A DNA stretch of 64,000 nucleotides. Source: Owenia fusiformis (Eukaryota > Annelida > Polychaeta > Sabellida > Oweniidae). Both the position numbers and the translations under genes were made by a program. Under the pieces are notes generated by a model, which saw nothing but the letters and a program-made list of their open reading frames with translations, did not search any database and was not told the DNA's origin. The stretch spans positions 34,291,375 to 34,355,374 of the forward strand of contig CAIIXF020000005.1 of NCBI GenBank assembly GCA_903813345.2, read 5' to 3'. Position 1 is the stretch's first letter; each line of letters opens with the position of its first letter. Positions 4,887-62,990 of this stretch are shown piece after piece.

Positions 4887-4892
4887 AATAAA
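4887..4892 (+). promoter_or_regulatory. Poly(A) signal, MCT-like copy A
   Basis: AATAAA 63 bases after the stop codon of copy A; the equivalent signal is present after copy B. Confidence 0.6.
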
Positions 4893-5256
4893 GCATAAAC
4901 AATAGACAAAAAAATCATCAATTGATGTATTCCTCAACTGAATAAAAAGAAAAACATGGACGTTTTTAATCATTGATAAATCCTAATCAAGAATTTCCTA
5001 ATCAAGCATTTTACTACAGTACTAAAACAGTCATTTAACAATATGTGAACACATAATTCATTCTTTTGAGTTGAAAAATCCCAGCAATATCCATATTTTG
5101 CCATATTTGGACCATTATCACCAGTGTAAAATTATCCTAATATCAAACTATAGAAAAACATGAGCAAATGTCCACAAATTCTGGTGATATATAGCACTTA
5201 GTTTTGAATAAGAAGAGATAGTTATATGAGTATATCGGTGTGTTGTCATTGCATCA

Positions 5257-8446: not shown

Positions 8447-8520
8447 TGTTGACGGATGGACGGACGGATGGACCAACAGATGGACGGACGGACTTACGGA
8501 CAGACAGACGGATGCCTGGT
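8447..8520. repeat. GACGGACG-type microsatellite
   Basis: Degenerate array of GACGGATG, GACGGACG and GACAGACG units ending GGATGCCTGGTCG. A similar array occurs at 9180-9246 and a short one at 21000-21030, each following a diverged AT-rich block, as if part of one dispersed element family. Confidence 0.6.
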
Positions 8521-14782: not shown

Positions 14783-14841
14783 TTTATAAACTTTATCGCA
14801 AAAAATCAATTTGTAAACATGGGGCAACATACATTTATATT

Positions 14842-14847
14842 AATAAA
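14842..14847 (+). promoter_or_regulatory. Poly(A) signal, MCT-like copy B
   Basis: AATAAA 60 bases after the stop codon of copy B, conserved with copy A. Confidence 0.6.
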
Positions 14848-15310
14848 GCATAAACAATAGACAAAAAATCATCAATTGATGTATTCCTCAACTGAATAAA
14901 AAGAAAAACATGGACGTTTTTAATCATTAATAAATTCTTATCAAGCATTTCCTAATCAAGCATTTTACTACAGTACTAAAACAGTCGTATAACAATATGT
15001 GAACACGTAATTCATTCTTTTGAGTTGCTAGTTTTGCCATATTTGGACCATTATCACCAATGTAAAATCATCCTTATATCAAACTATATAGAAAAACATG
15101 AGCAAATATATATATAGCACTGAGTTTTGGATAAGAAGAGATAGTTATATGGGTATATCGGTGTGTTGTCATTGCATCATAATAATTATTTTGGCATATT
15201 ATTTTGCCATGTGTATTCATGTACAATATTACTTCAAACAGCAAGCCTCAATACACAAGACACTCCTTGAATATGATAACAGGGATCTATCATATGTAGG
15301 TAGTAATAGT

Positions 15311-22200: not shown

Positions 22201-25200
22201 TTCAAATACGATGAGAAGTTTGAATATTTTGATGTTTTAAAAAATTCCTTACCTTTATTTGAGAGTCTGGATTTTGAGTATTTTGTCCATCTTTTGTTTT
22301 TTGAGTTTTTATGCCTTCTATGGTTCCATTACTGGTACTATTGGTGCCATTACTGGTACTATTGGTGCTATTACTGGTACTTTTTGTGCGATTACTGGTA
22401 CTGTCGGTGCCATTATGTATAGGTGGACGCTGTCTAAGGTTATATGAGGATTTAATTTGACTATTATTTGACTTTAGATTTTTGTTATTGTTTGTTTTTT
22501 CATTGTTTATTATTTCGGTGTCTTCTTCTTCATCACATTCATCCTCCAACTGAAAAATAAATATTTTAGGATAAACTGCCACTTTATTTATTTTACTTGA
22601 TGTCAGACTGATGTCAGGCTGACATTAAGAAGTTAGTATCTCATAAATCCTTCAAAAAATTTGATTGCAAAAACATAAAATTATGTTAAACTTTACATAA
22701 ACAAGTAAACATACAAATATTAATTTGGAGTAAAAAACTACCTTTTACTTTTTCAATATTTTCTTATTTAACAAATAAAGAACAAACTGAAAATTCTTAC
22801 TGCATCAAATTCTCCTTCTTTGGCAAATATTTTTTCAATGATTAAAAAGCTGAGGATTCCTGTTAAAACCCAAAGTCCTATTTTCATTTGGCCCCAGTGC
22901 ATGCCATCACGATCTGAAATGAAGAAAAAATACATGAAGGATGTGGTTTAAAATGCGAGCTTGTTTTGACAACATTAAAACTGGGAATGTAACATAAATA
23001 ACATTAATACGACAAAGTGTTATCACCTGGTTGCATTATCAAAAATGTAACAATTTGTCACAGATGCTGACACCAAACATTGATGCCAGTCACCGAAAAA
23101 ATGGAGCTATAACAATATTTTATCATTTTTTGGAAGTGACATAAAATCAGAACATTATAGAGGGAGAATACATATTCTTATTTGGCCCCAGTAAATAAAT
23201 TGCTAAGTGATATTAGAAATTCAAATATCAATGCAGAATATGAAATATCAAAAAGTGAACCATTCATAACACATGCACTTAATATATAATATCAATGCTA
23301 AGATTATATATGGACATAATCTAGGATGAAAAGTGATAAAATAATCAAAAGCAGGCAACAGATATGGAAATATAATACCTGGATGAAATACCTGTTTACA
23401 TAATGTAATATTTTGATTAACAAAATAAAGTTAGAAAAGGAACATTTAAGAGTATACTTAAAGGTGCAACAAGTAGTGCAGAGGGGCCATTCAACGATCA
23501 TGGACCAGTGTCAAAATATTGGATATTTCATCAAGACTAACATCTATCTTTATTTTCTACAAAGAAACCCCCAAGATAATCATTATTTCAGATTATATTC
23601 CTCTTGAAACATGGTGGATCTTAAAAATATAAAAGTGGACGTGCCCTTTTTGAAGCTTTGAACTGAATTTACACTTTTTAATGCCGAAATTGATAGTTTA
23701 TCCATACATTTTAAGAAAATAGGTATGTCGAAGAAGATGTTAAGCCAACTGTTGCCTTGATAGCTTAGAAAAAGTTTAAATTTTCCTATTTTCTCTCTAC
23801 AAGCCTTATTGCCCCTTTAATTAAATATAGTCCCCCACCCACTTACCATTAGATGTTATGTTATATTTAGGAACTCATTCTTCATGTATATTTTCAAGAG
23901 AATCTTCCACATAAGTAAAAAAACAGACTTTCCTTTTCTTCTAACTCTACAGTTATCTTAGTTTGATTAATGTTACGGAACCAGATAGACTATCATATAC
24001 TGAACAAACATAACCTATTCACCCTTATTTGAAAACAGTTTCAGTAAAACTTCAAATGTTGATTAGTATCAATCCATTCATCACGTGCCAAAATAATTAC
24101 TTATGTAACAGAACAGTACATATTTTCATTTGTCACAGTATAATGTTTAACCAGCACCATCCAAAATACAGAAAATGAAGTCATATTATCTCTTGCCAGG
24201 GTTGATGGCTATAAAATGGTAGATATTGTCTATAAACAGGAATAAGCCTCATCCACAGGTAGCCTGACAAAATCTGTTGGATCTTGACTGGTATTTTGTG
24301 TTAATACTTTGGTAAGTTATATTTCTAAGCCCTTGCCAGGTTAAATGCCAATGCACTTATACATGGCTAGGAAGGAATGCACTTTCACTACATACAGGGT
24401 GTCTCAAAAAAATGTACCCAAAAGTATACGAAGAGCACAGATAAACCAATCAATATTTTCAGACATTTTTTGCATGGTCATGTAGCCGAAACATGAAAGT
24501 TTCCTCCCCAATACACCATTTTTATTTCAGTCTTGTCTTTTTGATGCTTTAACCCTTTACCTTTTACACCACATAATCGATGTAACCTCATATTTGGACG
24601 ACAGGCTGTATCCTTACTGTTAGATTGTTCATCACATTTGATAATAATTCCAGTGGAATGTTTTGGATTTCTCTTTGGATGTTGCCCTTAAGTTGTTTTA
24701 GAGCTTTTTGCTTGGAATGAGCATTAAAACACTCCTTCAAATAGCCACAGAGAAAGATGTTTGAGGATGACGATGGCAGAACAAAAACAGATAATCAGGT
24801 CAATTATCGGCAAATGATTCAGGAGTTACCTTCCAGAGTAAGGCAGGCTAGCCTGGAGACCAAATGATATCCAAATGAAAACACAGTGGTCTCGAATTGA
24901 TACATCAAACAAAAGCTATACTAGAATCCCAACCAATGCAGTTTCTTGAACCTCTGACCTCTCTGTATAAGGGGGCTATAAGACATTGTGAGGGTCTCCC
25001 TATTCACCATATTTGACGGCCCATACCTTTATCTCAGAGGCTATTTGAAGGACCATTTTTATGCTAAACCCAAGCTAAGAGACCAAGAACAACTTAAGAC
25101 CAGCATCCAAACAGAAATCAAAACATTCCACCAGATATATCAAATGTGGTGAACAATGTAGGAGTAAGGATGCAGACTGTCATCGAAATATGAGGTTACA

Positions 25201-28200
25201 TTGAATACGTGGTGTAAAAGTTAATGGGTTAAAGTATCAAAAAGGCAAAACTGAATTAAAAATTGTGTATAGGGGAAAAAACTTTCATCTTTTATCTGCA
25301 AGACCATGCAAAAAATGTCTGAAAATATTGATTGGTTTGTCTATGGTGCTGATATACTTTTGGGTACATTTTTTTGAGACACCCTATATATTGTCACTCA
25401 CATCTTACTCAATCTCAATTCTTCTTCTTATCTTTCTTCCATATGCAGGCTTCTTAATATTTTCATTTTTTATGTTTTTCCTCAAATTTCTCAAATTCCT
25501 CTAGTTTTGTATCATTCTCTGTAAACCAATATCTGACAAGATGTTTGACTCACAGGTAACTAAATTAAGACTATATTTACAGGAATATTTCAGAAACTCA
25601 TAAGCTATGAAGTATAAACACTACAACATTCAGTATAAGCTACATAACAGAGCTCAAGTAGGTTTTCTGAGTGCAAAATCAACATAACCAGCAACTAACA
25701 AATCCAAGAATTAGGACCTACATAGACTGAGATGGTAAATCATACACAGGAATATAATAATTCATCATTAGGTATCTATAACCTGTGTAATGTCAAATTT
25801 TGCTGCTTAATTTTTGGTTGCCATAACAACAGCATTGTTTCCATAGACACCAAGCTGGAAGTAGGAGGGATATCAAGCTCATATCAAAAACTTTACTGAA
25901 TCCAGGATTTGTTCTTTCCATATCTGTGCAGCTAAGCTCAATTAAATGATACAGAGTAAAACTGATTGTTGATAAGGATATTGTTACCATAGAAACCACA
26001 ACAATATGGAAGACTTTTTTGAAGAACATAATCCCCATATGCAAAGATATCAGGTAATGTACAGATGCAGTTAACATTTATATACAAAAATGATCAAAAA
26101 TAGCTATGTAAACTTAACCTTCTATATGCTTTTATCACATACTTGGATGTGTTTGAAGTACATAAAACAGGTATGCAGAGTTCTATTTTCATCATCGGGC
26201 AGATTAGCCTCAGGATAATCTTGATATCCTGCACCTCCAATAGAATAATCTATATTTATTCCATACTTGGATGTGTTTGAGGTACACAAAACAGGTATGC
26301 AGAGTTGTATTTTCATCATCAGGCAGATATATCAAATTAGCCTCAGGATAATCTTGATATCCTGAACCTCCAATAGAATAATCTATATTTATTCCATACT
26401 TGGATGTGTTTGAGGTACACACAGCAGGTTTGTAAATAGTTGTATTTTCAACAGGTAGGATAAGGTTTTACATCCTGACTAGCGAGCAGATACTGTATAC
26501 TATATCTGCCCACTCACTACATTATAATAGCCACCGCATGTTAGTGCATCTCGTTCCGTTCACAACCTAAAGAATATCTTTGTCGTGAAGGTTCTAAAGA
26601 CATTTTTAATCTCAGTAGGTCTGATTTTAATTTATCAGAACAGAACTGGTAAAAGAAGATGACAAATGTGAAATCTATGTGAACACAATATTATATCATC
26701 CCCATAAAACTGACAAATGTGGGGATGGGGACTGTATGATCTTTGCAAGAAAATTTACTAAATCCCTTAACTTTATTCTTTCACTAAATTTCACATGATT
26801 CCTAAGTACATTGTACATGTTGGGAAATGGTCGAGTATCACACTGATATTTTTAGAGTTCTCCCCCTTCCTCTATCTACATTTCATATGATAAATGAATT
26901 GCATTTCCTAAATCCCCTTATTAATGTACTAAACTCCTCATTTGATATATATTGAATACATGTATGTGCAAAATCAATGAAACAGCTGTTCATAGAAATG
27001 AAGAAATAACAAAGGAATAACATGCAAAATGTCACCACCTGCCATTTGTTACAGACACCAAACACAAAACGATACTCGGTGAATGATGAACCTTTCCTGA
27101 CAGCTGGTACTCTGATATCTAAAGCAGACCATGATCCTTTCATATTGACTTCGCATATCCAAAAATGGTACCATGGAAGTCTAAGCATAAGATTAGCAAA
27201 GATACTTATACTAATCCTACCAGAAGAGAAATATCAATTATGATATCCCACTTGTAATACCATCAAAAGAGCAATCCAAAGCCAGTTTTACTGCATCTCT
27301 AGTAGTTGATGAAACATATCGAAAGCTTTCAGGTCGAATTATCTACTTCACTATGTGAAAACAAAATGACAGCTTTGATGTGTTTTTTATTAGACCTGAT
27401 CATTTCCTTATATTCAGTAGCTAACAATAAAGGGCTTTATCCAAGAATTCTGGAACAGTATAGAGCTATGAAGATTAAAATTGTTGTAAATAACTTTTCA
27501 GAGCATGTTGGCACCAATATAACCTTAAAATCGGAATATTTCAAAACCCAGTTTTACAGCCCAAAATGTCTGTATATTTCATGAATTTGAATACTGAATT
27601 TCATGTCTTTAAAAGCAGTTTCTAGATTCTTTGACAAATCTCATATCAATAGGAGCGTGAAATTGGCATTTTTGTCATCAATTTGATCAATGGGTAGATG
27701 CATTTTAAAATATTTATCTTCTACTATCTTCATTATCTTGGGTAAATCATTCTCAATTCTATATGCTTTACATCTTGAGTAAACAATTCTCACATTGATG
27801 CTCCCATATCTTGAGTAAATCATTTTCATCTGTATCTATATGCTCCTTGCCTTTTTCTTGAGTAAACAATTCTCACTTCTGTCTATGCGCTCCCATATCT
27901 TGGGTAAACCATTTTCACCTCCATCTGTATGTTCCCATATCATGGCTTGAGTAAACAATACCTCTATCTATGTGCTCCCATTTCTTTGTTAACATTTCTC
28001 ATCTCTATCTATGCGCTCCCATATCTTGGGTAAACCATTATCACATCTATCTATATGTTCCCATATCTTAGGAATCATTCTTAAATCATTCTTACCTCTG
28101 TCTATGTGCTCCCATGCCTCGGGTAAAAGATGAAGGAAGACATCACCAAGGAGACCACCAACAGCAAAACTCAACAGCAGCTTAAGCCGCGATGCAGCAG

Positions 28201-31200
28201 CTGAAATTATATGTAAAGAACATATAGATAACATTCGAACATGACTGTATTCACCCCTTCTTTAAACTGTGAACAAAGTCAATATTTCACCCAGTTTTTA
28301 TTTGTCGATGCAATACCTGGTCTGTACTGTGTTCTGTTGAGTGCACCAGAAGTAGGAAATGAAGTGACGATTTTGGAAAATTTTGTTGAGTTGTCTTGTT
28401 TGAATCATAATAAAGACCCCAGATCAGGTATTATATTGAGTAATAAATACCTTAGGGCTAGGCACAAAAGCTTTCAGAAAATGTTTGTGCCTAACCCTGC
28501 GGTATTTATTCATCAATATAATACCTGCTCTTTGAAACATGACAGAAATTCTGGTGATAATAAGACCAAAAAAACATTCATATTAATATTATTTATGTTC
28601 AAAGATCCATAGGCTCGTTTAAAAGGGATTAATAGTGTTTTAATATATTTAAAGGGATTTACATTAACTGGCTTCGAGATAATAATGGGATGAGTTTAAA
28701 TAGTTTACTATGTGATACATAAGCTTTAGGGATTACAACTCTAGTTAGATAAGTCTTACAGGATTACCATTGATAAAAGCAGATAAATAAGACACTAGAA
28801 TGAGGCTTTGTCAACCTTCAGCGAGAAAGGTGTAACATTACCTGGATTGTACAATCGATAAATTAAAGAAGACTTTAAAGCCTATAAAGCTTTGAAATCT
28901 CGTTAATCGATGCAATGTTAAAAATATTGGTTTATAAGTTCAACAACCCGAAATTTCATGATTAATCACAATATTTACATTAATAACAGGGTCCGGATCC
29001 CATAGTATGCCATTTAAGTTTTAGTTTTTATGACTCCAAGCAACACTTTTGAATAAATCATGAAATTAAGTGACAGAGTTTTTACGATTGAGGTGTATGA
29101 CAGTCTTGTCCAACCAAAACAAATACATGTGGTGACATCTATTCAGTTTTATTGGTCTATTCTTTGTATTGCTCATTTGCTAGCAATGGTAGGGATTGAC
29201 GCAATCATTAAATTAATGAATCTTTCTATTCCATTTAATCTAAGAACATTCTACAGGTTCATATAACATCTATTTTTCAAAGTCTATTATAGTAATTGAT
29301 GCAGTCAAGGAAAGATTAGATCATTCATTCTATTCTACTAATTTTATTACTAATACTAATCTTCCTTCCATAGAGTCAATTGTACCAGGTCATTCAAACA
29401 ATTTTACTGATTCTATACACCATCTAACTTTTTTAAAGTCTACTAGTATTTTATCGACTGACACATTTGACATGATTGATAAATGAATAGAAGAATTAAT
29501 AGATTATTTCGATTCTATAGAACATCTATACTATCGCTTAATATAATAATCATAATCATCTAGTGAAGAACAGATCATCCATTCAAAACTAATGAATCTT
29601 CATGTACTTGACATCTTCATACATTTCTTATAGTCTACTTTCACTGGCATGTAGCGATTATAGCGGTCCTGTCTTGGCTTATTGAATTGTTACGAAGTTA
29701 CGTATGCGGTGCGGAAGTTAGAGAGCAAATGACCATCATTTCAATGTAATAGTTTATGCAGGAAAATTGAAATTAGGCCATTGGAGTATTTGTTTCATGC
29801 ATTTGTAAAACGTTACCCACTCATAGGTCATACTTATCGTTAAACCAATAACTCAAATATATGCTCTTGTACACCGATCACCTGTTGAAATTAATACAGG
29901 CCGATTTCAACAAATGTAAACGGCGATATATTTAAAATCGTATTCAAGCATGACCACGTCCCAACTTCTTTTGTTTTCTTTACAACTAAGCTATGACTGC
30001 AGTCTATTCAGTGTTGTGTATCGAACCTTGTTTATTATAAAAATAGTGCAACAACAAGCAGAATTCACACATTTACCTTATACTTATTCTCAACTGAAGA
30101 CATTGAATTTATCTCTTAGGTTTTACATTATAAATATCTTAACATGCAGAATACGAAAATAGAGGCTTAGGCCCAACTTTGTATGAATTTTATGAGAATA
30201 ATCTGATTTTAGAGAAATGAAAAGAAAAATGTCCACACACTACACAAAATATTTATGGTTCCCCGGGAATACGTATGTGCTGCTTGTATATTAGAATCGT
30301 ATTCCAGTTACAGAAAGAAGTACATATCATGCTAAACTATATACAACAGTTATGCACTTGGAGGTTTTGGATACAGGGAATATCCCGAGGGATACATAAT
30401 ATGTCTTCCCTTAGTCCCTCGGGAAGAAATATTGTATATCTCTCGGGATATTCCCTGTATCCAAAACCTCCAATTGCATAACCCCTATATATTGGCCAAG
30501 GGATAATCCCAATATCCTGACTATAGGATAATATGTTTATCCCATACCAATCTTGGTCATCTGGTTCACATTGTTAAATCGTGGAAATATTTTAGAATAT
30601 TCATGTCCAGTTTTGTTTTCTTGGCCGTTGGCGGATTTTCATGTTCTCTCAAATAATCCCATATTTATTTTCTCGAATTTTTTATTGATAAAGTGGATGC
30701 TCTTTCCCTTTTTTAACTATCAAACAGACCCTGATTGTCTGTGTTTTCTCCATTGCCGTTTACAGTCATTCCGCGAACGTTACAAATTATGAACAAATAT
30801 GCAAGCGGCGATTATGACGTAGCGGGCAGATATACTACATCTGCCCGCTTGGAGCGGGACGTAAAGCTTTATCCCATGGTTGCAAGGAGGATATAGATCG
30901 AATATCACATGATGATATATTTGATATGTGGATCAAGATATCATATTTTAGCAAACAATTTACAAACCATCGAATATCACTTTTAAACTATCGAATATCA
31001 CATCTTAAATAGAGGATATCCTATGATTTATGAGTGATATGATTTTTATCCACGAATGGATATGATATCTGCACGAGTGAGCGTAGCGAGAGATTAAAAT
31101 CATATCACGAGTAAATCATAGGATGTTCTTTATATTCCATAGTTAAAGTCATCATCAGAATCTTCGGGAATTAAGTGATCTAAAACGAATTTTCCAAACG

Positions 31201-34200
31201 ATACGGCGATATTGACACTTAGCCTCGTTTTGAGTCTGAAGTAGCAAAAATCCATAAACCATGGCATACGGCGCCGCATGTCATGGCTAAAACACCGTAT
31301 GCTATGGTTAAGTGAAAATTTGCCAAAAATATCATATTTTACCACTGATTTCAAAAATACCGTTTTTATTTTGACATGTTATCCTATGGATATCATGCTA
31401 ACTATGGAATAATATAGGAATATCCTATGGCTCTGAAAAAATATCACTTATATCCATGAGTGGATATTGATATCTTCGCGAGTGAGCGCAGCGAATGAGT
31501 GAATATACTGATATCCATGAGTGGATATAAGTGATATTTTTGAAAAACTATAGGATTGTCCGTTTCATCCCATTGGGAATTATTATCCAGCGAACATTGA
31601 ATAGTCAGATAAATTGCAATGGAAATTCCATTTCGTCTGACATTTTGATTGCGATAATTCAACGTGACGTAACAGAGTGGTTTGTATTTAATGCGAACGC
31701 CGTAAAAACAGGATCCCAAAAAATAAAAATATATAATAAATATATAATTCAATTCAATTAAATTCAATTTATTTCATATTTCTTATATAATATACACTAT
31801 AAAAACAAGCCGCTAGACTCCCCAGTGGGTATATGTTGCGGTCTAACAGAAATCATTAAAATGACATCTAGACTACATATAAAAGAAAACACTTATATTA
31901 TGTTACATGTAGGTATATAAAAATGGTATTAACAATTAATCTAAGGATGTACAATGTAAAAATGTTACAAAAATCAGGTATCAGTATAAAATCAACAGTA
32001 TAGTATGATATTGGTATTATACATTATCGATAGATGAGTAGTTTTTTATATGAAGATTTGAAAATATTTAGAGTGGAGCATTTTTTAATATCATGTGGTA
32101 GAGCATTCCAAAGATTAGGACCTAGATAGCGAAGGGAAAGTTTAGAGCATTTAGGGATATGAAAAAAATGCAATTGTCTTGTGTAATGATGATGAATATT
32201 AATGTTGATATCAAACAAGTCTTGAAATAGATTTTTTGGAAGACTGAGGTGCTTATTAAAGATTTTGTACATGAACTGACCAGTACAATATCTGTTGACA
32301 TCAAAAATATTTAATATGTTAAGATCTTCAAATAAGGGAGCGGAGTGAGAAAGTCTATCCTTATTTAAAGCTAGCCTTAAGAATTGTTTCTGCAGTTTAT
32401 GTAGACGATCATAAAATGATTTAAATGTGTTACCCCAGATTATGTTGCAATAATTTAATTGAGAGTGTATCAATGAGTAGTAAATTGTTTTCAAACTGTC
32501 TATTTGAAGTAGATGTTTAATGTGATAAAGAGAACCAATGACGCGAGAAATCTTTGTTTCAATAGATTTTATGTGCTCTTTAAATGTCAAGTTTTTATCA
32601 ATAATAATTCCAAGAAAGTCAATTTTATCCCGGAAATTTATGTTCTCATTGCGTATTTTGAGATTCAGATTTGTTTGATTTTTTGGGGTCCAAATAGAAT
32701 AGCATTGGTTTTGCCAATATTAAGTGAAAGTTTGTTTGCTTTTATCCAGTCATCTATTGAATTCAAGTTTGCATTAGTTCATTTAAATCATAATCACTAT
32801 CAAGAAGATTGGTGTCATCAGCAAACATAATCAATTTTAGATTAGGGTCAACAAAAGGCAGATCATTTATGTAAAGAATAAATAATAGTGGTCCAAGCAC
32901 CGAGCCCTGCGGAACACCACAATTTAGAGATGATTGTTTAGATTCATAATTGTTAATGGTGACATATTGTTTGCGGTCTTTTAAATAACTTTCAAACCAG
33001 GACTTAGCTATTCCTCTGATGCCATAATATTCAAGTTTTTGTATCAAAATGTCATGATTAATAGTGTCAAAGGCCTTGGAAAAATCTAATGTTATGCCAA
33101 TGCTCGTTTTCCCCAAATCAGTTGATTTTCGAATTTGTTCAATGAAATATAAAATGGCCATGTAGGTAGAGTTGAATTTCTGAAATCCAAATTGATAAGT
33201 AAAAATAATTTCAAAACGTTCTAAAAAACCAGTGAGTTTGGCGTGCATGAGCTTTTCTAACAATTTAGAAAATACCGATAAAACTGAAATTGGTCTATAG
33301 TTCGAAGGATTTGTAGTGACTCCTTTTTTAAATACAGGTGTTACTTTGGCCAATTTGAGGGCGTCTGGGAAAATACCAGATTTAAAAGATAAGTTAAATA
33401 TATACAAGAGCGGATCAATTAAAAACTGTCTTACAGACTTAATAAGTGATGGTAGAATCCCATCAGGTCCAGGTGAGGAAGATTTTAGAAGACATATTTC
33501 TAATTCAAGCTCAATTTTTGAGGTCTTTTTGAGATAAATAGATGATTGAACTTTTTGAGCTCTTGCTAGGTATTCACAAACAATCGTTTTGCTGAATTAA
33601 TAAAAAAAATTGAAAAAATCAAAACCATCGAATATCACTTTTGAAACCATCGAATATCAATTTGAAACCATCGAATATCACCTTTCAAAAAGTGATATTC
33701 GATGGTTTCAAAAGTGATATTCGATGATTTGGGAATTGTTTGCTAAAATATGATATCTTCATCCACGTATCAATTATATCTTCACGTGATATTCGATCTA
33801 TATCCTTGTAACCATGGGATAAATAAGGGTTATGTACTGGGAGGTTTGGGATACGGGGTTTTTCCAGAGGGAGATATGCATATCTACCTGAGGGACCGTA
33901 GGGACAGAAAGTAGATGTGCATATCTCACGAGGGATGAACCCAATATCCAAACCGACCGTACATAACTGCTTTATCCTATACCAAGTAGAGTTTTCAGTA
34001 GTACAAGGTGTAAAAAATAAACAAATCATTCATATGCAAAGTCATTTTATTGCATTTCCACTTTTTGGAAGCGGGAAGATACGCCCCGAAGCGGGAAGAT
34101 ATGCACCGAAGCGGGAGATATGACGGGAGATGTGGAGGTCTTGATATGGAAACCTCAAAATCAGGATACGGGATATATCTTACCAACTTATCTCCCTAAA

Positions 34201-37200
34201 ACCCTACTTGGCATAGGATAAATCAAGATAATTTCTACTCGCATCTAGTCTATTCCACATGTTTGGGGAAAGTGTACAGGAAAATCTCCATGTTCAATTG
34301 ATGTATGATCAACCCTCATAGGGGTCAATCCAGTTGTCCGAAACCCAGTTGTCCGAAACTCAAATCTCCGAAACCCAGTTGTCTGAAACCAAGTTCTCCA
34401 AAAATTAGGGGATCTTATCAAAAAATACAATTTCTTAAAACGAATCTTGTCGCAACCTCTGCGAATCACGACAGCATAACATTTGAATCACGTTGACATC
34501 ATTGCAAAATTAGGCTAAATATGCTAAGTCAAGACGTTAATTAGCCCACGAAAGTTCATGGGTAACTTGAGAACTACAAAATACAACCAAATACTTTTCG
34601 AACGTACAATAGCAATATTTCTCACCCAACGTCTTCATAGTTTTAGGAACGTATTTTAAACGCATGATAGCCAAATATATCAAGATACTATATCTGCCTA
34701 AATGAAGTTATCTAGTGTTGACAAAGTTTTGAAATATATTTTATCCAGATCCATCAGAAATTAACTTAGCCAATACATTTGTTCATGAGAATTCTTTAAT
34801 TCTACCTCGTTCCCAATACGTCCTCAGACAGACAAGAAATTGAAGTCACACCCGTTTGTTTGCGTGGCATATTTATACGTATACGCACTTTCTCTGATTA
34901 TTGTCAAACAAATACATTTCAGGAGAAGAACATAAAAAACAAATGCCTGAAACGAATGCCGAAACATAAATCCCAAGTGATTAAGTTTAGAATGTTTTAT
35001 TCTTTTACGATTTGATAAGAGACTGAGACTAAGAAATTAAATGCGACGAAATATTTTGACAACGTAATTTGTATACTGTTTTATTCTTAAAGTTCTATGC
35101 GATACCTTATTTTATCTGTTTCAAAATGTTTCATTTTATTTTGCCTATATAAAAGAGATTGAAGAAGATAAGATAAACTGTTCCGTAATATATATTGTGT
35201 TTTAATAACCTTTTTTAGAATCACAATGTAAAATAAATCTCCCGTTCCTGCCATTCTGGTAACGCCATGCAATGGATGCAATTCAAAGTGAGAGAGAGAG
35301 ATCTATGAATATCAGAATGCGTCCATGCCATTAATTTGGCCAAATACATGGCATGAAACTGACGTAAGCTTAAGTAAGCTACGCCCCCCCCCTTTCTCTG
35401 GTAAATTATGACTTTATTTTTCGGAGTAATGGGTTTCGGACAACTGGGTTTCGGGGAATTGGGTTTCGGACAACTGGGTTTCGGACAACTGGGGTGTCAA
35501 TATATACGAATCGAATGTATTCTCGTGTGCATTACAATATCCCCATTGAAACATTTTTGGCCTGCAATGGACGTATAATGAATTAGAATATGAGGCCGTG
35601 TTATCATTCTAATGTAAAGTCATGGTATTTACTGTAGTATTGGGTTGCAAGTTAATATCAGATTCAATGCAAATTAATCATCTAATATCAGATGCGCGAT
35701 CAGTCCAATAATCTAATTTCAGGTCATCAGTTCGATATCTAGCACTTGTTCTAACGACACGGTATTACTAGACTATCATATTATAAATACACACACATAT
35801 AAAACAATCAAACTGGTACACGATATAAGCACGACTGCTCTTTCAATTGAGTATAAATGTTGATAAACTTACCCGGAAGCCAAGACATACACGTTTAGAC
35901 GATGCTATTTTCAGTTCAGTGTAAGAGTAAATGCCCGGATATCGAGGCTTTTTCGTGTAAAGTTTTAACCAAGCATCTAAAATCGGGTTATATTGCGTGT
36001 AGAATTTATCGATATCAGGGCCGCTACATGCCAGTGTACTTTAGTATCAATTTATACAACTGACACAATCAAGTGGTACCCCTACTTACTTATTGGGTGT
36101 CATATGCAAATTCATTGAATTTTTCAATATGTAATATTAATGTGTTCAATAACCAGTTTCACCACCAGGTGGCTCGTTCAGGTCAGATAGCATGGTGGGT
36201 ATAGTAGAAAGTTCCCTTTAACTTAAACATGCATCTGTTTTAGTGGTTTAGTGTATGTAATAGTTATGCAAATTAAAAATGCCCAGTAAAATAAAATGTT
36301 ATCTGTCCAATACAAGAAAAGATATTTCCCATTTTGTGATTTTATAACATGGGGTCTATGATCTCTCTGATATAGAAGTCACATTTTCAAAAAAAATTAA
36401 AGGACGATTCTCGGTTTGGAGAATAGTCTCCTGGGCTAAAATTTTTTTTCATGAAAAATATAGAAATATTACCCAAATTAAACTTTGAATATTCAAAAGA
36501 GAACATTTAAATCTACAAGATGTAAAAATAACAAATTGGTCTGAAGCAGGGATAATGCTCAATTAGACCGATTCAATAAAACACAAGTCTCGATTTGGGG
36601 AAAGAAGTTCAATAGTGTACTGCGCTAATATTTTTTTGCGAAAAATCTATAAATATTACCCAAATTAAATTATGACTATTCAAAAGAAGACATTCAAATC
36701 TATATTATGTAAAAAAAATCAAATTTGTCCGAAGCAGGGATAATGCTCATTTAGATTGATGAACTTCGTTCTCCAAACCGAGAATCGTCCTTTTCAAAGT
36801 TGATCAATTATTTTCGAAACCATATTTTGAGATGAACTTTTATATGTAGATTTCAAATATGATATCTCTTTCACTGAATTTTGAATATTTAATGACATAA
36901 ATCAAAATTATTTCTACATTGAGTCAATTACAATAATAGCCAGGTAATAATATTTTTCATGTTTTATGTTGCAATGTTTAAACTTTGTAATATTTATGAG
37001 CCAGAATGTGATGTCTAAATAAAAGAGATAAATGAATAATTTCAGTGACCAATCAATATATACTAAGTACAAGTAATAAACAAGACAAATGGGCAATAAC
37101 AATAGCTCCCCCATGTGAGCTAAAAATGATAAATAAAAGTAATAAAATTGTTTCAAACACATGTTGTTACCATATGTTGGTATTCATTTCCCGTTTCTGT

Positions 37201-51120: not shown

Positions 51121-52629
51121 TTGTTAGGACTGTTAGACCCATGCCTGTAGGTCAGACCTCCAGTAGATGAATAACTCTCTTATTTATGAGACATTTATAC
51201 AAGCCACTTGAGCTGTTGAACTTTTAGTGGAAATATTGTGTAAACTTGAGATTCTTACTTCCATTTCCTCAGAAATTCTTAGTTTTGAAAGTTTTAGTTT
51301 TTCATTGATTGAGACAATACTAAGCTTGCTTTGACACTCAAGAGTGGCATGATAATATTTTACTTGAATATTCATGGCCTTGTTTTTTGACTTTTCAATG
51401 ATATATCAAATAAGGAAGCTCTGTCTATGATATTATGTACAGTATAACATGTTGTTTTTGCGACAATATAATTTTTAATCCTTTAATAATGACTTCAATT
51501 TTGTAAATTAAATCATTTAATTAGGTGTTGCGAAATCCTTCTTCTATTGTCTGCATTAAAACAAATCAGAAAAAAGCGTTACATGACTAAAGGCAATGTC
51601 ATGAAAATGACTTGCTTTACTGTACAGTATGTTTCTCTGATAGTAGTAAGGACATACTTGCCTTTTTAGTGCTTTTAGTGCTTTAGTGCCATTTGAATTT
51701 ATTGTTTTAAGTTATTTCGCTCTCTAATGAGATGACCCAAAATTCCCTAGGATAAGATATAATGATCTAAGAGATATTTTAGATATGAGTAGAAGTAGCA
51801 GATTTTTGGTTCTTGAACATTTTATCATACTTGTAAAGAACTATATTGTAGTCTTTTTGTGCTTATTGGTGTGCAGGCTGGTGGCAAAAGAAATCTTGTT
51901 ATTAAGATAGCAAAAAATCATTCATAGATGTTCAACATGAAAGGAGCATGTAGGTTATCGCAAACAATTTCAAACGATTCTATCTTGAATTATGAATATT
52001 TTCTGATCATGAACATGGGTGTATCTTTTAGATCCATTCATTATCTTCAAGAAAAGTATATATAATGATAATTTAGTTAATCAGACCTAAGTGATATTGA
52101 AGGGGCAATGGACCAATCAACATACTTTTTCAAGAATGTTGACCTAATTTTCATCAAAAATGCAACCTTTTTATTATATTGTTGAATGCATAATTAGAAT
52201 GTGCTTTGAGACATGTTCAATTTCCTAAAAGGAAAAGTTGATTGCTCCAGGGACTTTAAAGATACTGAATTTGGATGACCAAAATGAACTGAAACTAATG
52301 GATACCATGAGATTTTTCAATGGAGAAATAACATGGGGAACACTTATCTTAAAGCTGGACTGCGCTCCGAAACGCAATCTTGGGTTGTTTCGGGGATGAA
52401 CTTTATCATTTTGAGCTTAATGAAAGATTATAGAATGATGAACAAATGGGGCAAATCTTGTGTAGAAATACTTACGATAAATGTGTCATTTCAAAGATTA
52501 TTCATTGAATTGCTTCGATCGGCGCCGACAATATGATTTTGGAAAAGTTTCTAAATGAAGAACGTGACGTCACTTCCGAATCATAGCATTCAAAATAAGT
52601 AGCGTTTAATTACTTCCAACATTCATAAG

Positions 52630-52700
52630 AAGACGGTGGTCTAGGGGTACAATTCTCGTTTAGCTCGCGGGAGGCCCGGGTTCGAATCCCGCATCACCTT
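52630..52700 (+). tRNA. tRNA-like sequence (probable tRNA pseudogene or SINE head)
   Basis: TGGTCTAGGGG fits an A box and GGTTCGAATCC a B box, with TTTTT after the 3' end as a Pol III terminator. The body resembles tRNA-Gly (ATTCTCG...CGCGGGAGGCCCGGG). With stem CTCGT/GCGGG, the 7-base loop TTAGCTC would expose anticodon AGC (Ala). The acceptor and part of the T stem pair poorly, so it is unlikely to be a working tRNA. Confidence 0.55.
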
Positions 52701-52703
52701 TTT

Positions 52704-54165
52704 ATCGCACTTTGAAAAAGTGCTATATTGTCGTCGTCTTGTGCTGTTGGGCGGGCGTGCGGTTGTGCGGGCGTGCGGGCGTGCGGGCGGCACATAAACC
52801 AAATCTTGTCATCAAATTTCCAGGATAACTGCTTACCTGTTCAACTTGAAATTTTTACAGATGCAAGAGCAGACTAGTACCAAGATCTGATTAGGTTAAG
52901 GGCATGCTGGGTAAACTACGTGGCGGCCATTTTGAATTTTTCAACAAATCTTGTCATCAAAATTCCAGGAAAACCACTTATCCGTTCCACTTGAAATTTT
53001 TACAGATGCAAGAACAGACTATTGTCAAGATCTGATTAGGTTTTGGGTATGCTGGCTGAATTACATGGTGGCCATTTCGAATTTTTCTATTTGGCGGCCA
53101 TTTTGAATTTTTCAACTTGCTCCAAATTGACCAATTTTTTTTTTTAAAAACATCTACAAGTTCTCAGAAGTGCCATTTTGAATTTTTCAACTTGCTCCAA
53201 ATTGACCAATTTTTTTTTTTAAAAACATCTACAAGTTCTCAGAAGTTCAAATCTGACCTTAGATTTCAGATTTGACCTTTCATCCACCTTCAGTGACCTT
53301 GGAAAGGTCAAAAAAGTTGATTTTCTAAATTGATATTTTGGATTTAAATTTAGGTCAGCTTAATTACAAAACACCTACTGAGGTCTGAAAAAGTGAAATT
53401 TTCAAAGTCGAAGGTCAAGGTCATTAAACTAGGTCACAAATGATGTTATCCAAGTTTCTCAAAGTTTGAGACTACAAATCAATTCTTGTCATCAAAATTC
53501 CAAGAAAACCGCTAACCTGTTCAACTTGAAATTTTTACACATGCAATAGCAGACTAGTGCCAAGATCTGATAAGGTTTAGGGCATGCTGGGTAAACTACG
53601 TGGCGGCCATTTTGAATTTTTCAACAAATCTTGTAATCAAAATTCCAGGAAAACCACTTATCCGTTCAACTTGAAATTTTTACAGATGCAAGAGCAGACT
53701 ATTGCCAAGATCTGATTAGGTTTTGGGTATGCTGGCTGAATAACATGGTGGCCATTTTGAATTTTTCAATTTGGCGGCCATTTTGAATTTTTCAACTTGC
53801 TCCAAATTGACCAATTTTTTTTTTAAAAACATCTACAAGTTCTCAGAAGTTCAAATCTGACCTTAGATTTCAGATTGGACCTTTCGTTGACCTTCAGTGA
53901 CCTTTAAAAGGTCAAAAATCTGATTTTCTAAATTGAAATTTTCAAGGTCGAAGGTCATCAAATAAGGTCACAAACAATGTTATCTAAATTTTCCCAAAGT
54001 TCAAGACTACAAATAAATTCTTGTCATCAAAATTGCAGGAAAACCGCTAACCTTGTCAACTTGAAATGTTTACAGATGCAAGAGCAGACTAGTGCCAAGG
54101 TCTGATTATGTTTTGGCCATGCTGGGTAAATTGCATGGTGGCCAGTTTGCTCTTCAAAGTGCGAT
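52704..54165. mobile_element. Younger copy of the TIR repeat, internally expanded
   Basis: Perfect 13-bp inverted ends, ATCGCACTTTGAA (52704-52716) and its complement (54153-54165). A GCGGGCGT array follows the left end (52750-52792). The interior has about five copies of a 150-bp unit (starting near 52801, 52946, 53476, 53626 and 54012) of the type AAATCTTGTCATCAAAATTC, then ACAGATGCAAGAGCAGACTA and GGGCATGCTGGGTAAA. The first two groups are followed by blocks rich in TGACCTT. Confidence 0.75.
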
Positions 54166-54729
54166 ATTTATCACTGTGTGTCTTGTTTTAACTAAATGAT
54201 TGTTCTTTGATATAACGCAGAAAAAAACAATTTTTATTTACATAAACTTTATATTAGAGCTTAAAAATGTAAAAAACAATATATGTCAACATATTGCGTT
54301 TTGGAGCGATGTGCAGGTTTAAAGCAATTAAGTTTTTCTTTCAAGAACTATTTGATGCATCAAAATAAAGAATAGTTATGCATTAAACATTGTAAAAAAT
54401 GATTGCATTTTTGGTGAAAATGGGGTCAGCATCTTTGAAAAAGTGTGTTGATGGGTTGATTGCTAGTTAAATATCTCCGAGTTTATTTGACTTAAATATT
54501 ACTGTATATAATTTTCTTTGAGATAATGAATTGATCTAAAAGATAAACCTGTCTTCATTGTCAGAAAATAGTCATTATCCAAGATATAACCTTGTGAAAT
54601 TGTTTGCGATAACCTACATGCTCCTTTTGTACAAATGCAAAAGCTGACTAGTGGGGTGGTGTCTTCACCTGATTAGGTTCTGGGCATGCTGGGTAATTTA
54701 CATTTGCTCTTCCTATGCAATATTTGTCA

Positions 54730-57700
54730 CTATGTATCTTGTCCTTGTTATCACTCAACACTTTCTGTTTAGTTTATTGATTTCGCTATGGAACTATGGT
54801 TGTCAAAGTGCTGTAACATTATGACTTACAGTCTGATGAAATATCATAGGCTGGTAGGAATTTGAATGTTGTACAAATGTTTCAAATATCAGAGAGTAAT
54901 TTCCTAAAATTACAGAGATGAGGAAAATGCTGGGTTTCCATATTTTTGACCACCCAGCATTTATAACCTTTTTCAAATCTGTTTTCAAAGTATCACTTAT
55001 AGTCCAACATGAGCAATGATCCGAGAATTTCGTTAATTTTGTTTAACTAATGGGATTTGCTACTCCAGTGAGTTGCTGTTCTCATATCTGCCAAATTCTA
55101 ACCTCAATTTATCTGTTTTACTTCTCTCTTATCTCACAGAAATCAATCTGAATAATCTGTTTCAATCAATCTTCATATCAAAGGTAAAATATTTAATTCT
55201 GGTCTAAACGGGCAATATAATTAATGGTTCTAGGTTGGGCTCATCAATAAACATTCAATCAGACTTTAGGAGAGAAAAACCTTTCCCCATTCTGTACTAT
55301 TTTTAGAAATTTTAAAACAAGGTTAGAGTTTGGAATGATGTGTGGTTAGAATCATTTGACAGAAGAAATCTGGATTTCTGCCTCAAATAGATTTCAGCCT
55401 TCAGTTTAGATAGGATAGTACTACAGATGCTTAAAACACTAGCGGTTCTGCATTGATAAAACAGATAGGCTTTCATACTAAGTGAAATAAAAGAATGGCC
55501 ATGAATGTGTGTTCGGAGATGGATTGGAAAAATACACAACCATAGTGTGGGGAGGCGAAATATATTTTTTCAAAAATCTCAAGAAGCTTTTTTATTACAA
55601 ATAAGGCCTATTTTCAGGCCCAAAATGAAAAAATATGCTCCCCTCAGAATTGCCAGTGAATTTCAAAATATCTTTGGTCTAACTGGTTTTAAGAAATCTC
55701 AAGTAAGATCTGTGGACCATATGTTGATGTGGTTAACACAACACAAACAACATGAATTCTCTTAGTAATAAGGTGATTTTTGAATTCTCAGCTGATCGTT
55801 TTAATACCGAAGGAACTATCTTCTTTATACAACTCATGCAATTTCTAAATCAATCCAATATTGTGTGTAAACATCCCTGCTCTGGCCAGAAGTAAGGATA
55901 ATTTGAATACCTGGAGAATCTGTTGATTCTATTTCAGGCGCTTAGATTTATTGGCATATCCACAAAAATATTTTGGCAGTTATGATTTCAAAGGCAAATT
56001 GTGTAGAATAGTGTGAAAGATCATGGATGAATTCTATATGTAAAGTATCTCAAAAATGATTAGAAATACCAGAAAATGTTGTAGTTCATTCACATTTTGA
56101 AGAGAAGTCAAGTGAACTAAGAGTGGAATGAATGAGATAGAGTTTAAGCACAGGATATCACAGTAGTATAAATGGTATTTGATGAAATCCTAACATCTTC
56201 TTACAACTGTCCTTAAAGGCCCTCTGTAAGGTTTGAAAATATGTTTTTATTATTCATTTTTAGAGATTTTTGAAAACAGAAAAAAGTTGTCAGTTTTTAT
56301 TTCTCAAATATTCAACTTTTAAATTATTTCTGTGTGTGCATATCTTTAAGATGGCGAATTGACCTTTCATAGAAATCTTTACTTTAGATAATCATGTTAG
56401 AAAGCTTTTGATATTGTGTATGCTTATTAAACATCGTTCTGACATCACTGACAGATGAGTGTAAAACAGTTGGGAAAAAATCAGAAATGAGTTTCCCTCA
56501 AAAACCTGGAAAGTGAATTTCAGATTTGTTAAAAATGGCTTGAATAATGAGGGAATTTTAGCAACTGAAAAATGAATTTTAATTCTGTAAAATGTCATTT
56601 TGATTCACAATGTTTCAGTTGTTCCTACCTCTAGACCCAGTGGAAAGCTGACGATGGTAAAATGTTGTGTGGTTTGAAAATGAAACATTTTTATTTATGA
56701 TATTTATGCCTACAGAAAACATAATAAATTGATTTATCTAGCATTTGCAATATAATACATGACCACCATTACATGACATATATAATATACCTATATATAA
56801 ATCAGGATAATTCAAGGATGAAAGTGGGGAGGCTAATTAAGATAAGGCAGAAGAGCTGTTAGGCTAGGTAACCACTACCAGGAATAATCTCTCCAGCATA
56901 AAGAAACTGGGCACGGCCCCCAGTTGAGAATAAGATGAATTACCTTGTATTGTACCCAGTTAAAAACTAATTGCACCCAGTTCAGTAGATCATGATTAGT
57001 TTAGGAAATCATGATTTGATTGATATGATTTGACCAATTTTCAAAACTTCCTTGCAAGGATAGGGTAAAATTATTATTTTACGCCACATTGATTATTTTC
57101 TTGTTAAAAACGCTTTTCAGGATTATGTTATTGTTTCCATGGTTTCCTGACCATATCTATGGAAACAGTGTGTAGAAGATAGTAAACAAACATAACTTTA
57201 GATTTGTGTAAAACTTCAAAAACCATTGCTTTCACATCATTCGAATCACAGATGAAAGTATAGTACAAGGTTGTACATCGTAAACTATTATGTCCGGGAG
57301 ATCATTTGGGAAGATACAGAGATCATGGTTGTTATAGTTACCATACACATCACAGAAGGAAGATAACCTGGAGAAGCAGATCAGAGAAAAATCAATTTAG
57401 ATTTTCAATGTAAATCTATCGTGATAGGTACTTCAGGTTATATTGGTTTTCATAGATTAACCCATCCTCTGAATTCCATGTTTCTTCCATTCTATAAATG
57501 GAATTTCTGTAAAATAGGAATGAGTGTTTTATCTTCTTGCATTTAATATGTACCCGTTTTGTATTTTTTGCCTGTTTGTTTTGATTAAAAGTTCTTGCAA
57601 ATTATCCCAGTTACCACTATTTCATGTTTAAAAACGCAAATGCTTTGGTATTTTATCCATGGGAGATTGTGCTTACCTGATTTACTTAAAGCTGCATCAA

Positions 57701-58745: not shown

Positions 58746-60307
58746 TGTTACCATTGTTCTTTCTAATACTCTCCTTTGTGCCATCAACAAATGATAAAGA
58801 ACACATAATTGATATCAATGTCACACGTTTTAGGTCTAGTTCATCATAAAAAAACTGGACATTTTATGACAAAATATCACTACTTAGTTTAGTTATTACA
58901 AATGTCTCCAAAGGTGGAACAGTTTGTTGATGCTGACTGTTGACACCAAATGCCACCAAAATGTCACCACTTTTTGGTTATGCATGGCACATGAAATTCA
59001 ATATTTATACGACAATTACGAGTATATATTGATGAAACATATTTTTAATTTGAAGATAAATTGAATTTGTATTTGAATTAATTCAATATGACCAGCTGTT
59101 GTCTATAAGAAAACAAGCTATTCAAGTTTCAATTTAATCCAATAGCTATCTACCTTGAGTGCAGAACTTAGTTCTTATCTAGTTGAAGTTTACTGGAGAT
59201 GAAGCTCTCTTTTAAGAAATGAAGACAAACTAATGTGAATTGTAATACATATCCAGTATATAAGGATCATATGTCACCAGAGGGCCACCAGATAATCTAT
59301 GAGCTAGACACAACAACATCTAGTTTTAACAGATATAGTTTTTTATTAGATATTAGTGGATTTTCCAACCATTACCAATTTTGAAAATAGACTTGCACCC
59401 AGCTGAAAATCCTTTTGCACCCATTTGAAAATGGGAAAGATCATGGGGAATTCTATATCAAATAGGCAAATTTGACCAATTTTGGTCTAAATTGTAAAAA
59501 TAAGAAAAGGCAGGGAGAGCACTAGTGGCATAAAGTTAAGTCCCCATCCATCAAACAGTTTGTCCATAGGTAGAGTTAAACTGGTTAATAACTCATATAC
59601 CAGTGGACTGATTATCTTCAAACTTGATAGAAAATTGAACCATAGAAAATAGTTTAACGCAATCAATGTTTTTCAAGATGGCGCCCAAAGTTTTACATTT
59701 AAACCAAAGTAATAATATTAATACAAAATCTTGGTAGAAGACCGTAGCTATGCACATTCCTATTTACCAGACCTCTATTGCGTTGAATATTATAAAGTCC
59801 GTTCCTCTTTAAGAAGATGAAGGAAGAGGCCACAGCAATGGCCTAAGGAGCCTCAATAAAAGTACAAATGTCTTGTGGATTTATGACTACCTTTTATATT
59901 GTGCATCCATATGAAATACAAAAAAAAGTAAATTAAAATGCTTTTTAAGACTGAATTATAATTAGAAATACTCAGCTACTGTATTTCTATAACATAAAAC
60001 ATGGCTGTAGGCAGCAGTTGGTGTGTTAATGTTCAAAGGTCAAAGCATGCCAATGTCAGCTTGTCCAGTGCATGAGTTTTGTATGTTGATGTTTTGGGTT
60101 TTTAGAAATGCAGACTTCAAATAAATAAATAAAAGAAATTATAGGTACCGTGAAAGTTGTTCAAAAAATATTTTTGATTCAAGAGGTTAATGTCTGTATC
60201 TGTACTGAATATAATTGGACAAGTAAGTTTCTTCTTATATTCAGGTATTTTATGTTTATATTTTCAATGAAGGTTCTATTTTCAAGTCTTTAATTTTCTA
60301 TTTGCAG

Positions 60308-62990
60308 AACTACATTGAGAACATCCCAGAGAAGCTTATTCTGCACATATTTTCGTATCTCCATCTGAAAGAGCTGGGAAAGATCGCACGAGTATGCCGA
60401 AAATGGCGAAACCTTGCATACGATCCTCGTCTTTGGGAATGTGTCTCACTACGACCAGAGTACAATGGATTATCAATCAACCACACAGACTATTTAATGA
60501 ATTTGATCCACAACAGGTTTGGATCAAAACTTCGCTACATCGAAATGCCATCAGATTTGATCACCCCAAGTGTGCTCCACGATTTAGCTGCCAAATGCCC
60601 CAGTATCAAATACATGACTCTGGATTTCTCCAAGGCGATGCAGTTGCATGATTTTAACGATCTTAATTCCTTCCCATGCAATATGAAGTCACTGTGTATA
60701 TGTCTCAGTGAGGTCATCTTTATGGAGGGGTTCATGAGGAGGATTTATCAATGCCTTAATACCTTGCAGGTTCTCCATCTCATAGGTAGGTTGAGGCACT
60801 TACTTAACACCTTATGTGTACTTAATATCATAGTTGTTCATATGCTTGAAGGCACTTACTTAACACTTTGGATGTACTTGGTCTCACATGATTTGATATG
60901 CTTAAAGGCATCTCATGTGTGTTCATATGCTTAAAGGCACCTTGCATGTACTTAAAGGTGCAACAATTAGTGCAGGGGGGGGGGGCAATCAACAATCATC
61001 GACCAGTGTCAAAATATATTTAAGTTTGGATATTTGGGTATTATCTACAAAGAAACCCCCTGGATGAACATTATTTCAGCTGATATTCCTCTTGAAACGT
61101 TGTGAATCTTAAAAATCTATGTGGGACTCCCTTGAAGCTTTGAACTGAATTTACACTTCTTTAAAGGCTGAAATTGAGAGTATATCCATAAATTTTAAGA
61201 AAATAGGTATGTCAAGGAAGATATTAAGCCAAATATTGACCTGATAGCTCAGAAAAAATAAAAAATTTGAATTTTCTCTACAGTCCTTGTTGCCCCTTTA
61301 ATCTCATGTGCGTTCATGTGCTTAAAGGCACTTACATAACACCTTGTATGTACTTAGTCTCATATGTGTTCATATGCTTAAAGGAACTTACATAACACCT
61401 TGTATGTACTTAGTTTCATATGTGTTCATATGCTTAAAGGCACTTACATAACACCTTGTATGTACTTAATCTCATATGGGTTCATATGCTTCAAGGCACT
61501 TACATAATACCTTGTATGTACTTAGTTTCATATGTGTTCATATGCTTAAAGGCACTTACATAACACCTTGTATCTACTTAGTTTCATATGTGTTCATATG
61601 CTTAAAGGCACTTACATAACACCTTGTATGTACTTAGTCTCATATGTGTTCATATGCTTAAAGGCACTTACATAACACCTTGTATGTACTTAGTTTCATA
61701 TGTGTTCATATGCTTAAAGGCACTTACATAACACCTTGTATGTACTTAGTCTCATATGTGTTCATATGCTTAAAGGCACTTACATAACACCTTGTATGTA
61801 CCTAGTTTCATATGTGTTCATATGCTTAAAGGCACTTACATAACACCTTGTATGTACTTAGTCTCATATGTGTTCATATGCTTAAAGGCACTTACATAAC
61901 ACCTTGTATATACTTAGTTTCATATGTGTTTGTATGCTTAAAGGCACTTACATAACAACTTGTATGTACTTAGTCTCATATGTGTTCATATGCTTAAAGG
62001 CACTTACATAACACCTTGTATGTACTTAATCTCATATGGGTTCATATGCTTAAAGGCACTTACTTAATATATTTTATCTACTTGTTGGGTCTCATTCATA
62101 TGGTTAAGGCACTTTCTCAACAGTCTGCATATACTATATCTCATATGTGTTCATATGCTTAAAGGCACTTACTATAGATCATCCTGGCATGATTCATATA
62201 TAGGTACATGCACATATGCTTAACATCCTACAGGTGCTTTAAATACTCTCTTTAACTACTCATACTTCATCATAGATATGTCTACCTGGATATATTGACC
62301 TGTTGAAGGAATATGTATGTTGATATATTTCATTGAGCTCTCGATTCACTGAGAAGCACATTATATCTTGACAGCTGCTAAAGTACGATTTATTAAAGTG
62401 GAAAAGTCAGGTATTTCATTCATGTTTTGAGGAAACCGTGTGAAATAGAGCAATTTGACTGTTTTCCTAGGTTCCTTACATAATCCTTACAGCTATTATA
62501 GAAAAGAAAATTATATCGATATATGTTTTCTTGTTGCTGGTCATAAGAATTATCTTATACATTATAAACATCATACGATATCATAAGGAAAACAAACCCC
62601 AACTATCCCAAACTATAATCCAACCTATATTAAGTTTTCAATAAATAGAATTTTTTTCTACAACAGTAGAAAAAGACATTTTCACTGGCTTACGAATCAA
62701 AATGATTCATTTTATGTTTTCAGGCACATTTGAACTGTCCAATGAGGAAGAAGAGGAGATATTTGAAGTGATCAACATAGCAAAGATCAAGGCTCATACG
62801 CCAAATCTACGTCTTGTTAACTTATATGGTATTAATTTCGTTGACGACTCCCATGTTGAATTACTCGCCTCAAACTGCATCCATCTTGAATGCCTTGCGT
62901 TGAATTTTTGCCTTCGGGTAAAAGGTGCTGCTTTCTCAACGTTGATCCAAAGATGTCGGAAACTCACTAGTCTGCTGTTACATCATACAA
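60308..62990 (+). CDS. F-box/leucine-rich-repeat protein, internal exons (partial)
   Basis: Expected substrate receptor of an SCF ubiquitin ligase. Exon 60308-60785 starts after TTTGCAG and encodes an F-box at once (ENIPEKLILHIFSYLHLKEL ... VCRKWRNLAYDPRLWECVSL), then MPSDLITPSVLHDLAAKCPS and MQLHDFNDLNSFPC. It ends ATAG|GTAGGT in phase 1. Exon 62724-62990 starts after TTTCAG, continues in frame (GTFELSNEEEEEIFEVINI), and carries LRR-type segments (VNLYGINFVDDSHVELLASN, CLALNFCLRVKGAAFSTLIQ), ending ACAA|GTAGGT. From memory it resembles the insect F-box protein FipoQ, unverified. The first exon with ATG is not identified and the 3' exons lie beyond the right edge. Confidence 0.82.
60780..62180. 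repeat. 56-bp minisatellite in F-box gene intron
   Basis: About 14 well-kept units between 61311 and 62070 of the form CATATGCTTAAAGGCACTTA, CATAACACCTTGTATGTACT, TAGTCTCATATGTGTT. Degenerate units lie on both sides (60780-60950 and 62080-62180). The first block is separated from the rest by the TTAA MITE. The array begins just after the splice donor at 60785. Confidence 0.85.
60956..61307. mobile_element. TTAA-flanked MITE, copy 2, splitting a minisatellite
   Basis: 352 bp, homologous to 23462-23816 and in the same orientation, flanked by TTAA at 60952-60955 and 61308-61311. It sits inside a unit of the 56-bp minisatellite at its TACTTAATCTCAT motif, so neighbouring units supply the empty site. 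Confidence 0.8.

Follow-up and report, generated by a model that had tools for sequence, protein, structure and literature searches.

Two separated sequences in the 64-kb window (the whole stretch of DNA that was analyzed) are the two parts of one single-unit copy of a repeat, split by a palindromic element that has another copy of this repeat in its spacer (Table 1). The initial annotation had proposed that a repeat is nested here, through a palindromic carrier, within an older copy of itself, and the outer copy, being continuous across the break, bears this out. We interpret the locus as layers of known kinds of mobile DNA, in which a Spy-type element sits inside an old HINE and has another HINE of that family in its spacer, and we give this reading a probability of roughly 0.7.

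The outer parts align to the inner copy. When joined (51800-51942 plus 54626-54760), they matched the inner repeat, reduced to one unit, with a local score of 152; 1,000 dinucleotide-preserving shuffles averaged 25.6 and did not exceed 46. The alignment of the joined halves to a single repeat unit, whose absence had been named as a refutation, lies above all 1,000 shuffles, and the outer halves do form one diverged repeat copy, as had been claimed. Taken alone, the 5′ half scored 59 (maximum of 37 in 1,000 shuffles) and the 3′ half scored 83 (maximum of 40 in 1,000 shuffles).

We postulate that a single-unit HINE, a nonautonomous Helentron, occupied the locus first. A Spy-type nonautonomous cut-and-paste element with long inverted arms would then have entered this HINE between AAA and TTT, leaving the target unduplicated. 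The HINE of the same family now in the spacer would have joined a T-run just after a tRNA-like sequence, and its ~145-bp units would have been enlarged through duplication. The palindrome was presumably mobilized by a Spy transposase and the HINEs by rolling-circle transposition, with the inner HINE probably inserting between Ts. Present in the DNA are the interruption, the AAA|TTT junction without duplication and its intact paralogous counterparts, the arms, and the majority of the HINE substructures.

Table 1. Features of the nested locus, by position in the 64-kb window
Feature	Position	Strand	Basis
Interrupted older HINE-like copy, 5′ part	51820..51942	+	Alignment to inner copy
Left half (AAA) of the palindromic element's AAATTT target	51940..51942	.	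Comparison with inner units
Palindromic, Spy-like nonautonomous element, 2,682 bp	51943..54624	.	Arms; termini
Left arm	51943..52246	+	Arm alignment
tRNA-like sequence (Ala, anticodon AGC)	52630..52701	+	ARAGORN
Inner HINE-like copy, better preserved, 1,487 bp	52699..54185	+	Alignments; repeats
5′ subTIR ATCGCACTTT	52704..52713	+	Sequence; motif search
Inverted repeat AAAGTGCTAT facing the 5′ subTIR	52717..52726	-	Sequence; fold
Microsatellite, G+C-rich 8/16-bp unit	52741..52789	+	TRF
Central region, five ~145-bp units and two intervening segments	52797..54150	+	Repeat comparison; TRF
3′ subTIR AAAGTGCGAT	54156..54165	-	Exact reverse complement of 5′ subTIR
Right arm	54323..54624	-	Arm alignment
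Interrupted older copy, 3′ part	54625..54741	+	Alignment to inner copy

The palindromic element and the contents of its spacer

A palindromic element of 2.7 kb had been described as filling the break, and both its position and its size agree with our delimitation. It begins with GGAGCATG and ends with CATGCTCC, without a target-site duplication, and its 19-base terminus occurs in the 64-kb window at the two ends of the element only. The arms are identical at 234 of 302 aligned positions (77.5%), with 2 gap columns. The outermost 30 columns are identical, compared with 204 of 272 (75%) in the remainder, a pattern that has a probability of 2.5e-4 if mismatches are placed at random. A further paired stretch of 30 bp lies at 52349-52378 and 54293-54322, and the ~102 bp between the left arm and 52349-52378 are found on the left side only.

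Identical termini on diverged arms fit ends that were maintained for a transposase; much of the divergence between the arms would then predate this insertion. Either the ends were under selection before the element inserted and the inner parts of the arms drifted, or those inner parts had been unequal from the start; on both accounts, the divergence of the arms overstates the age of the insertion. Of the 45 stop-to-stop frames listed, 6 were scanned for a transposase remnant and had no Pfam match at E values up to 5, as expected of a nonautonomous element. Exact-match scans of viral and prokaryotic contig collections returned no further copies, as expected of DNA from an animal, and this absence says little.

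In the spacer, the inner HINE starts within a T-run that directly follows the tRNA-like sequence, which had gone unmentioned in the initial annotation. This tRNA-like sequence probably represents a pseudogene or a SINE head. At the gathering score, Rfam returned no match in the window, and at E values up to 1, the interval 52560-52760 gave only sub-threshold matches to SpF41_sRNA and tmRNA, both over the TTCGAATCC arm. We rejected an intact tRNA gene, given an ARAGORN call that lacks Rfam tRNA support. Two further candidates were also set aside. A tRNA-like head that is a fixed part of the repeat family, as in a SINE-like composite, was rejected on the upstream flank of the outer copy, which shows no match to the tRNA-like sequence (172 of 1,000 single-base shuffles scored as well). 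The search for a target-site duplication around the block formed by the tRNA-like sequence and the repeat yielded just 7- to 9-base words, such as CTAAATGA at 52551 and 54192, which we judged to be chance.

If the inner HINE is taken out, CACC followed by a T-run remains, an arrangement that resembles the terminator of a polymerase III gene. The position of the inner HINE between Ts after a tRNA-like sequence would agree with the published habits of HINEs. A search for Helentron insertion at tRNA genes or poly-T found no mention of Helentrons among the literature matches listed.

The arrival of the inner HINE in the spacer may have preceded or followed the landing of the palindrome. It is possible, albeit not what we favor, that the inner HINE, together with the tRNA-like sequence, was already cargo of the spacer when the palindrome jumped, a variant of the main reading that concerns order only. 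The inner HINE lies wholly inside the palindromic element, and the identical 30-bp termini would also fit a fairly late landing that left room for earlier cargo; however, the inner HINE retains an exact pair of 5′ and 3′ subTIRs and may equally be a later, independent insertion into the T-run. The "clear order of events" that had been announced survives for the outer repeat, which came first, and the palindrome, which came second, but not for the place of the inner repeat. The outer HINE is the older of the first two because the palindrome interrupts it.

A more far-reaching proposal, which we consider unlikely, is that a Spy-type element with a captured tRNA-like sequence and a Helentron-derived repeat spreads as a composite and, because HINE units bear AAATTT, readily enters other HINE copies. 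If true, such spread would amount to a self-reinforcing nesting loop between two unrelated transposon classes. Were the HINE a regular cargo, rolling-circle transposition would be joined by a second route for the spread of satellite-like repeats.

The junction at AAA|TTT

Once joined, the outer copy has the sequence CATGAAA|TTTTGTACA at the break, with the right-hand TTT at 54625-54627. The inner copy supplies paralogous unbroken target sites, since the site homologous to the break stands whole, as GAAATTTTTACA, in four of its five units and differs by one base in the fifth (GAAATGTTTACA). Given that AAATTT is whole in four of the five inner units, the palindrome sits between AAA and TTT without a target-site duplication. 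The joined flanks of this single insertion equal the consensus target, with no duplicated bases. The locus offers one well-resolved Spy-type junction, for which the unbroken target is kept in paralogous units within the element's own spacer.

The same junction could be read as the work of another TIR transposon, not Spy-like, with the TIR AAAGGAGC and a 2-bp TG duplication. TG does stand on both sides (51938-51939 and 54628-54629) if AAA and TTT are counted as parts of the element, but the target must then have lost AAATTTT, a 7- to 8-bp deletion, exactly at the junction. That history is less parsimonious given GAAATTTTTACA in four of the paralogous units and the one-base difference in the fifth, and we regard the TG reading as improbable.

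For the preferred Spy-type insertion, one AAATTT within the repeat is enough to account for the nesting, and homology is unnecessary. The presence of this word in the HINE unit, as a target of Spy, suggests a plain reason for the nesting of two transposon classes. AAATTT occurs 76 times in the 64-kb window, with 9 occurrences in the 1,487-bp inner copy and 67 elsewhere, a density per base about 5 to 6 times that of the rest of the window. This high density at most hints at a cause of nesting, because the inner copy is internally duplicated, so that its sites are not independent, and because the outer copy, the one that was hit, has just one (interrupted) site.

The two repeat copies and their surroundings

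A second, better-preserved, and expanded copy in the spacer of the palindrome had been noted at 52704-54165; the copy is as described, but its extent is greater (Table 1). Its flanks are ...CACC and TTTTAACTAAATG, and its exact ends are not fixable inside T-runs; it lies between the CACC T-run and TTTTAACT. The outer copy starts with TTTT and is followed by T. The 5′ end of the inner copy, 52699-52726, reads TTTTT-ATCGCACTTT-GAA-AAAGTGCTAT, where GAA is the spacer and the inverted repeat is complementary to the 5′ subTIR at 9 of 10 positions, giving a hairpin of -7.2 kcal/mol (RNA parameters). The 3′ subTIR lies 20 bp before the end of the copy, and the candidate 3′ palindromes fold only weakly, at -2.0 kcal/mol in the inner copy and -2.4 kcal/mol in the outer copy (RNA parameters).

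The ~145-bp units of the inner copy occupy 52797-52941, 52942-53085, 53477-53621, 53622-53765, and 54012-54150. An internal duplication pairs 52796-53171 with 53476-53850 at 94.7% identity, and a perfect (100%) 75-bp tandem duplication spans 53097-53246. Elsewhere in the window (8023-8113, minus strand, and 8451-8512), a stretch that has 79 to 85% identity to the sequence intervening between 145-bp units of the inner HINE lies a few hundred bases from a GACG microsatellite. It possibly belongs to another HINE family with a common module.

The 5′ part of the outer copy consists, in order, of TTTT, a decayed 5′ subTIR with its inverted repeat, a short GT-rich stretch, and the first half of one ~145-bp unit, whose final bases are AAA. 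The 3′ part begins with TTTT, of which TTT is the right half of the AAATTT target, and ends in ...GTATCTTG. Over four chosen segments, the two copies agree at 163 of 212 aligned positions (76.9% identity, 25 gap columns); the microsatellite between the first two segments (51868-51885 and 52750-52795) is left out of this count, as are the inner copy's extra units. Both copies share TATTTRTCACTRTGTRTCTTG at 18 of 21 columns (score 30, matched by none of 1,000 single-base shuffles). This sequence lies mostly beyond the 3′ TIR as drawn earlier, and the likeness of the copies runs on to ...CTTG. Since ~20 bp past the 3′ repeat are shared, the repeat unit is longer than first drawn; the two-part structure previously assigned to the outer copy stands, and its previous ends (51824-51938 and 54628-54721) do not.

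The "TIRs" previously ascribed to the repeat are better read as the subterminal repeats of a HINE. A 14-bp inverted repeat (TATCGCACTTTGAA) is exact at the 5′ and 3′ subTIRs of the inner copy and occurs without mismatch nowhere else in the window; with up to 3 mismatches, the window holds 14 matches to this 14-mer versus 8.7 expected, and 4 of 100 shuffles reach 14. The exact repeat places TA on each side of its inner 12 bp, as would suit a TA-flanked mariner-type MITE with 12-bp TIRs (TCGCACTTTGAA) in place of a HINE. We find that classification quite unlikely, given that the copies remain alike for ~20 bp past the 3′ repeat, an extent that none of 1,000 shuffles equaled, and that the 5′ repeat, its own near-complement, the microsatellite, and the ~145-bp units follow the layout of HINEs in the published excerpt (PMC7492417).

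The homology-driven route put forward in the initial annotation, in which the palindrome would enter through homologous recombination, or through gene conversion, of the outer repeat with the spacer repeat, is extremely unlikely: both repeat copies are of one family, but self-comparison at E values up to 0.01 found no match between the arms and the repeat, and the break lies at the arm ends, with an exact AAA|TTT target kept, not in sequence common to arm and repeat.

The surrounding window is A+T rich (30 to 36% G+C in 2-kb steps), and its open reading frames (ORFs) include two LINE-type reverse transcriptases, one major-facilitator transporter, and one F-box protein. The DNA probably comes from an animal, and its repeats are reminiscent of those of molluscs. 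A tandem duplication relates 315-5073 to 10288-15027, with ungapped blocks 91 to 99% identical at a spacing of ~9.95 to 9.97 kb. Its first copy contains an MFS transporter ORF (3769-4821; Pfam MFS_1), its second copy contains a near-identical ORF (13730-14782), and a LINE-type reverse transcriptase ORF (5208-7415) follows the first copy. At 24393-25389 lies an inverted-repeat element of ~1 kb, which we take to be mariner/MITE-like, with ends like CAGGGTGTCTCAAAAAAATGTACCC and TA on both sides.

Farther along, at 30888-33806, 100-bp inverted arms (91%) surround a LINE-type reverse transcriptase in two ORFs, one of which has a Pfam match, and 22-bp tandem repeats lie near both arms. Two inverted arrays of a 15-bp unit (CCAGTTGTCCGAAAC), about 1 kb apart, occupy 34330-35493. 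Tandem repeats of 56 bp, a length that is not a multiple of three, occur at 60794-60910 (2.1 copies), where they overlap the end of the F-box ORF (60227-60934), and at 61298-62172 (15.7 copies).

Comparison with Spy transposons and HINEs

The original paper on Spy is reportedly that of Han et al. (2014). In the excerpts of later accounts that we consulted, Spy transposons insert between AAA and TTT without a target-site duplication, have TIRs of 5 to 691 bp, and are represented by few elements in Mollusca (PMC11304231; PMC4482050). Part of a survey of bivalve transposons exempts Spy from its duplication test (PMC10294476). The palindromic element resembles Spy, a member of the PIF/Harbinger-ISL2EU-Spy (PHIS) superfamily, as an inverted-repeat element flanked by AAA and TTT that lacks a target-site duplication, and its long arms fall inside the range of 5 to 691 bp given in those excerpts, as does cgSpy at 467 bp. 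Unlike Spy, it has no transposase match in the six frames scanned, its spacer is full of a tRNA-like sequence and a HINE, and the overall likeness of its arms is only 77.5%, with the outer 30 bp identical. The element may be called Spy-like, an assignment that goes no further than its target site, at one junction, and its inverted ends.

HINEs are described, in the excerpted sources, as nonautonomous Helentrons from mites, flies, and oysters (PMC4067079; PMC7492417), and pearl-related elements are reported in the available part of a study of clams (PMC5139131). The layout given there has a 5′ subTIR near a T-rich 5′ end, with a complementary inverted repeat within 1 to 12 bp (PMC4067079; PMC7492417). 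According to the same partial texts, mite HINEs have their 5′ subTIR 2 to 4 nt from the end and their 3′ subTIR 38 to 60 bp from the end (PMC4067079), subTIRs are usually 11 to 12 bp long (PMC7492417), and insertion takes place between T and T (PMC4067079).

The repeat differs from HINEs in that its 3′ palindrome is unconvincing, its 3′ subTIR is 20 bp from the end, compared with the 38 to 60 bp excerpted for mite HINEs, and its subTIRs are 10 bp long in place of the excerpted 11 to 12 bp. Unlike Cg_HINE of Crassostrea gigas, it has extra segments between its 145-bp units. Like HINE and pearl elements such as Cg_HINE, it has T-run ends, a 5′ subTIR with a facing inverted repeat, and a 3′ subTIR. 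Its microsatellite unit, read as 8, is within the 3 to 8 nt stated for HINEs in the published excerpts, and its satellite-like central units of ~145 bp are within the 140 to 180 bp stated there; its tail after the last unit is about 35 bp, compared with an excerpted 60 bp for the right flank of Cg_HINE. Judged by structure, the repeat is HINE-like and pearl-like, with most of the published HINE parts in order.
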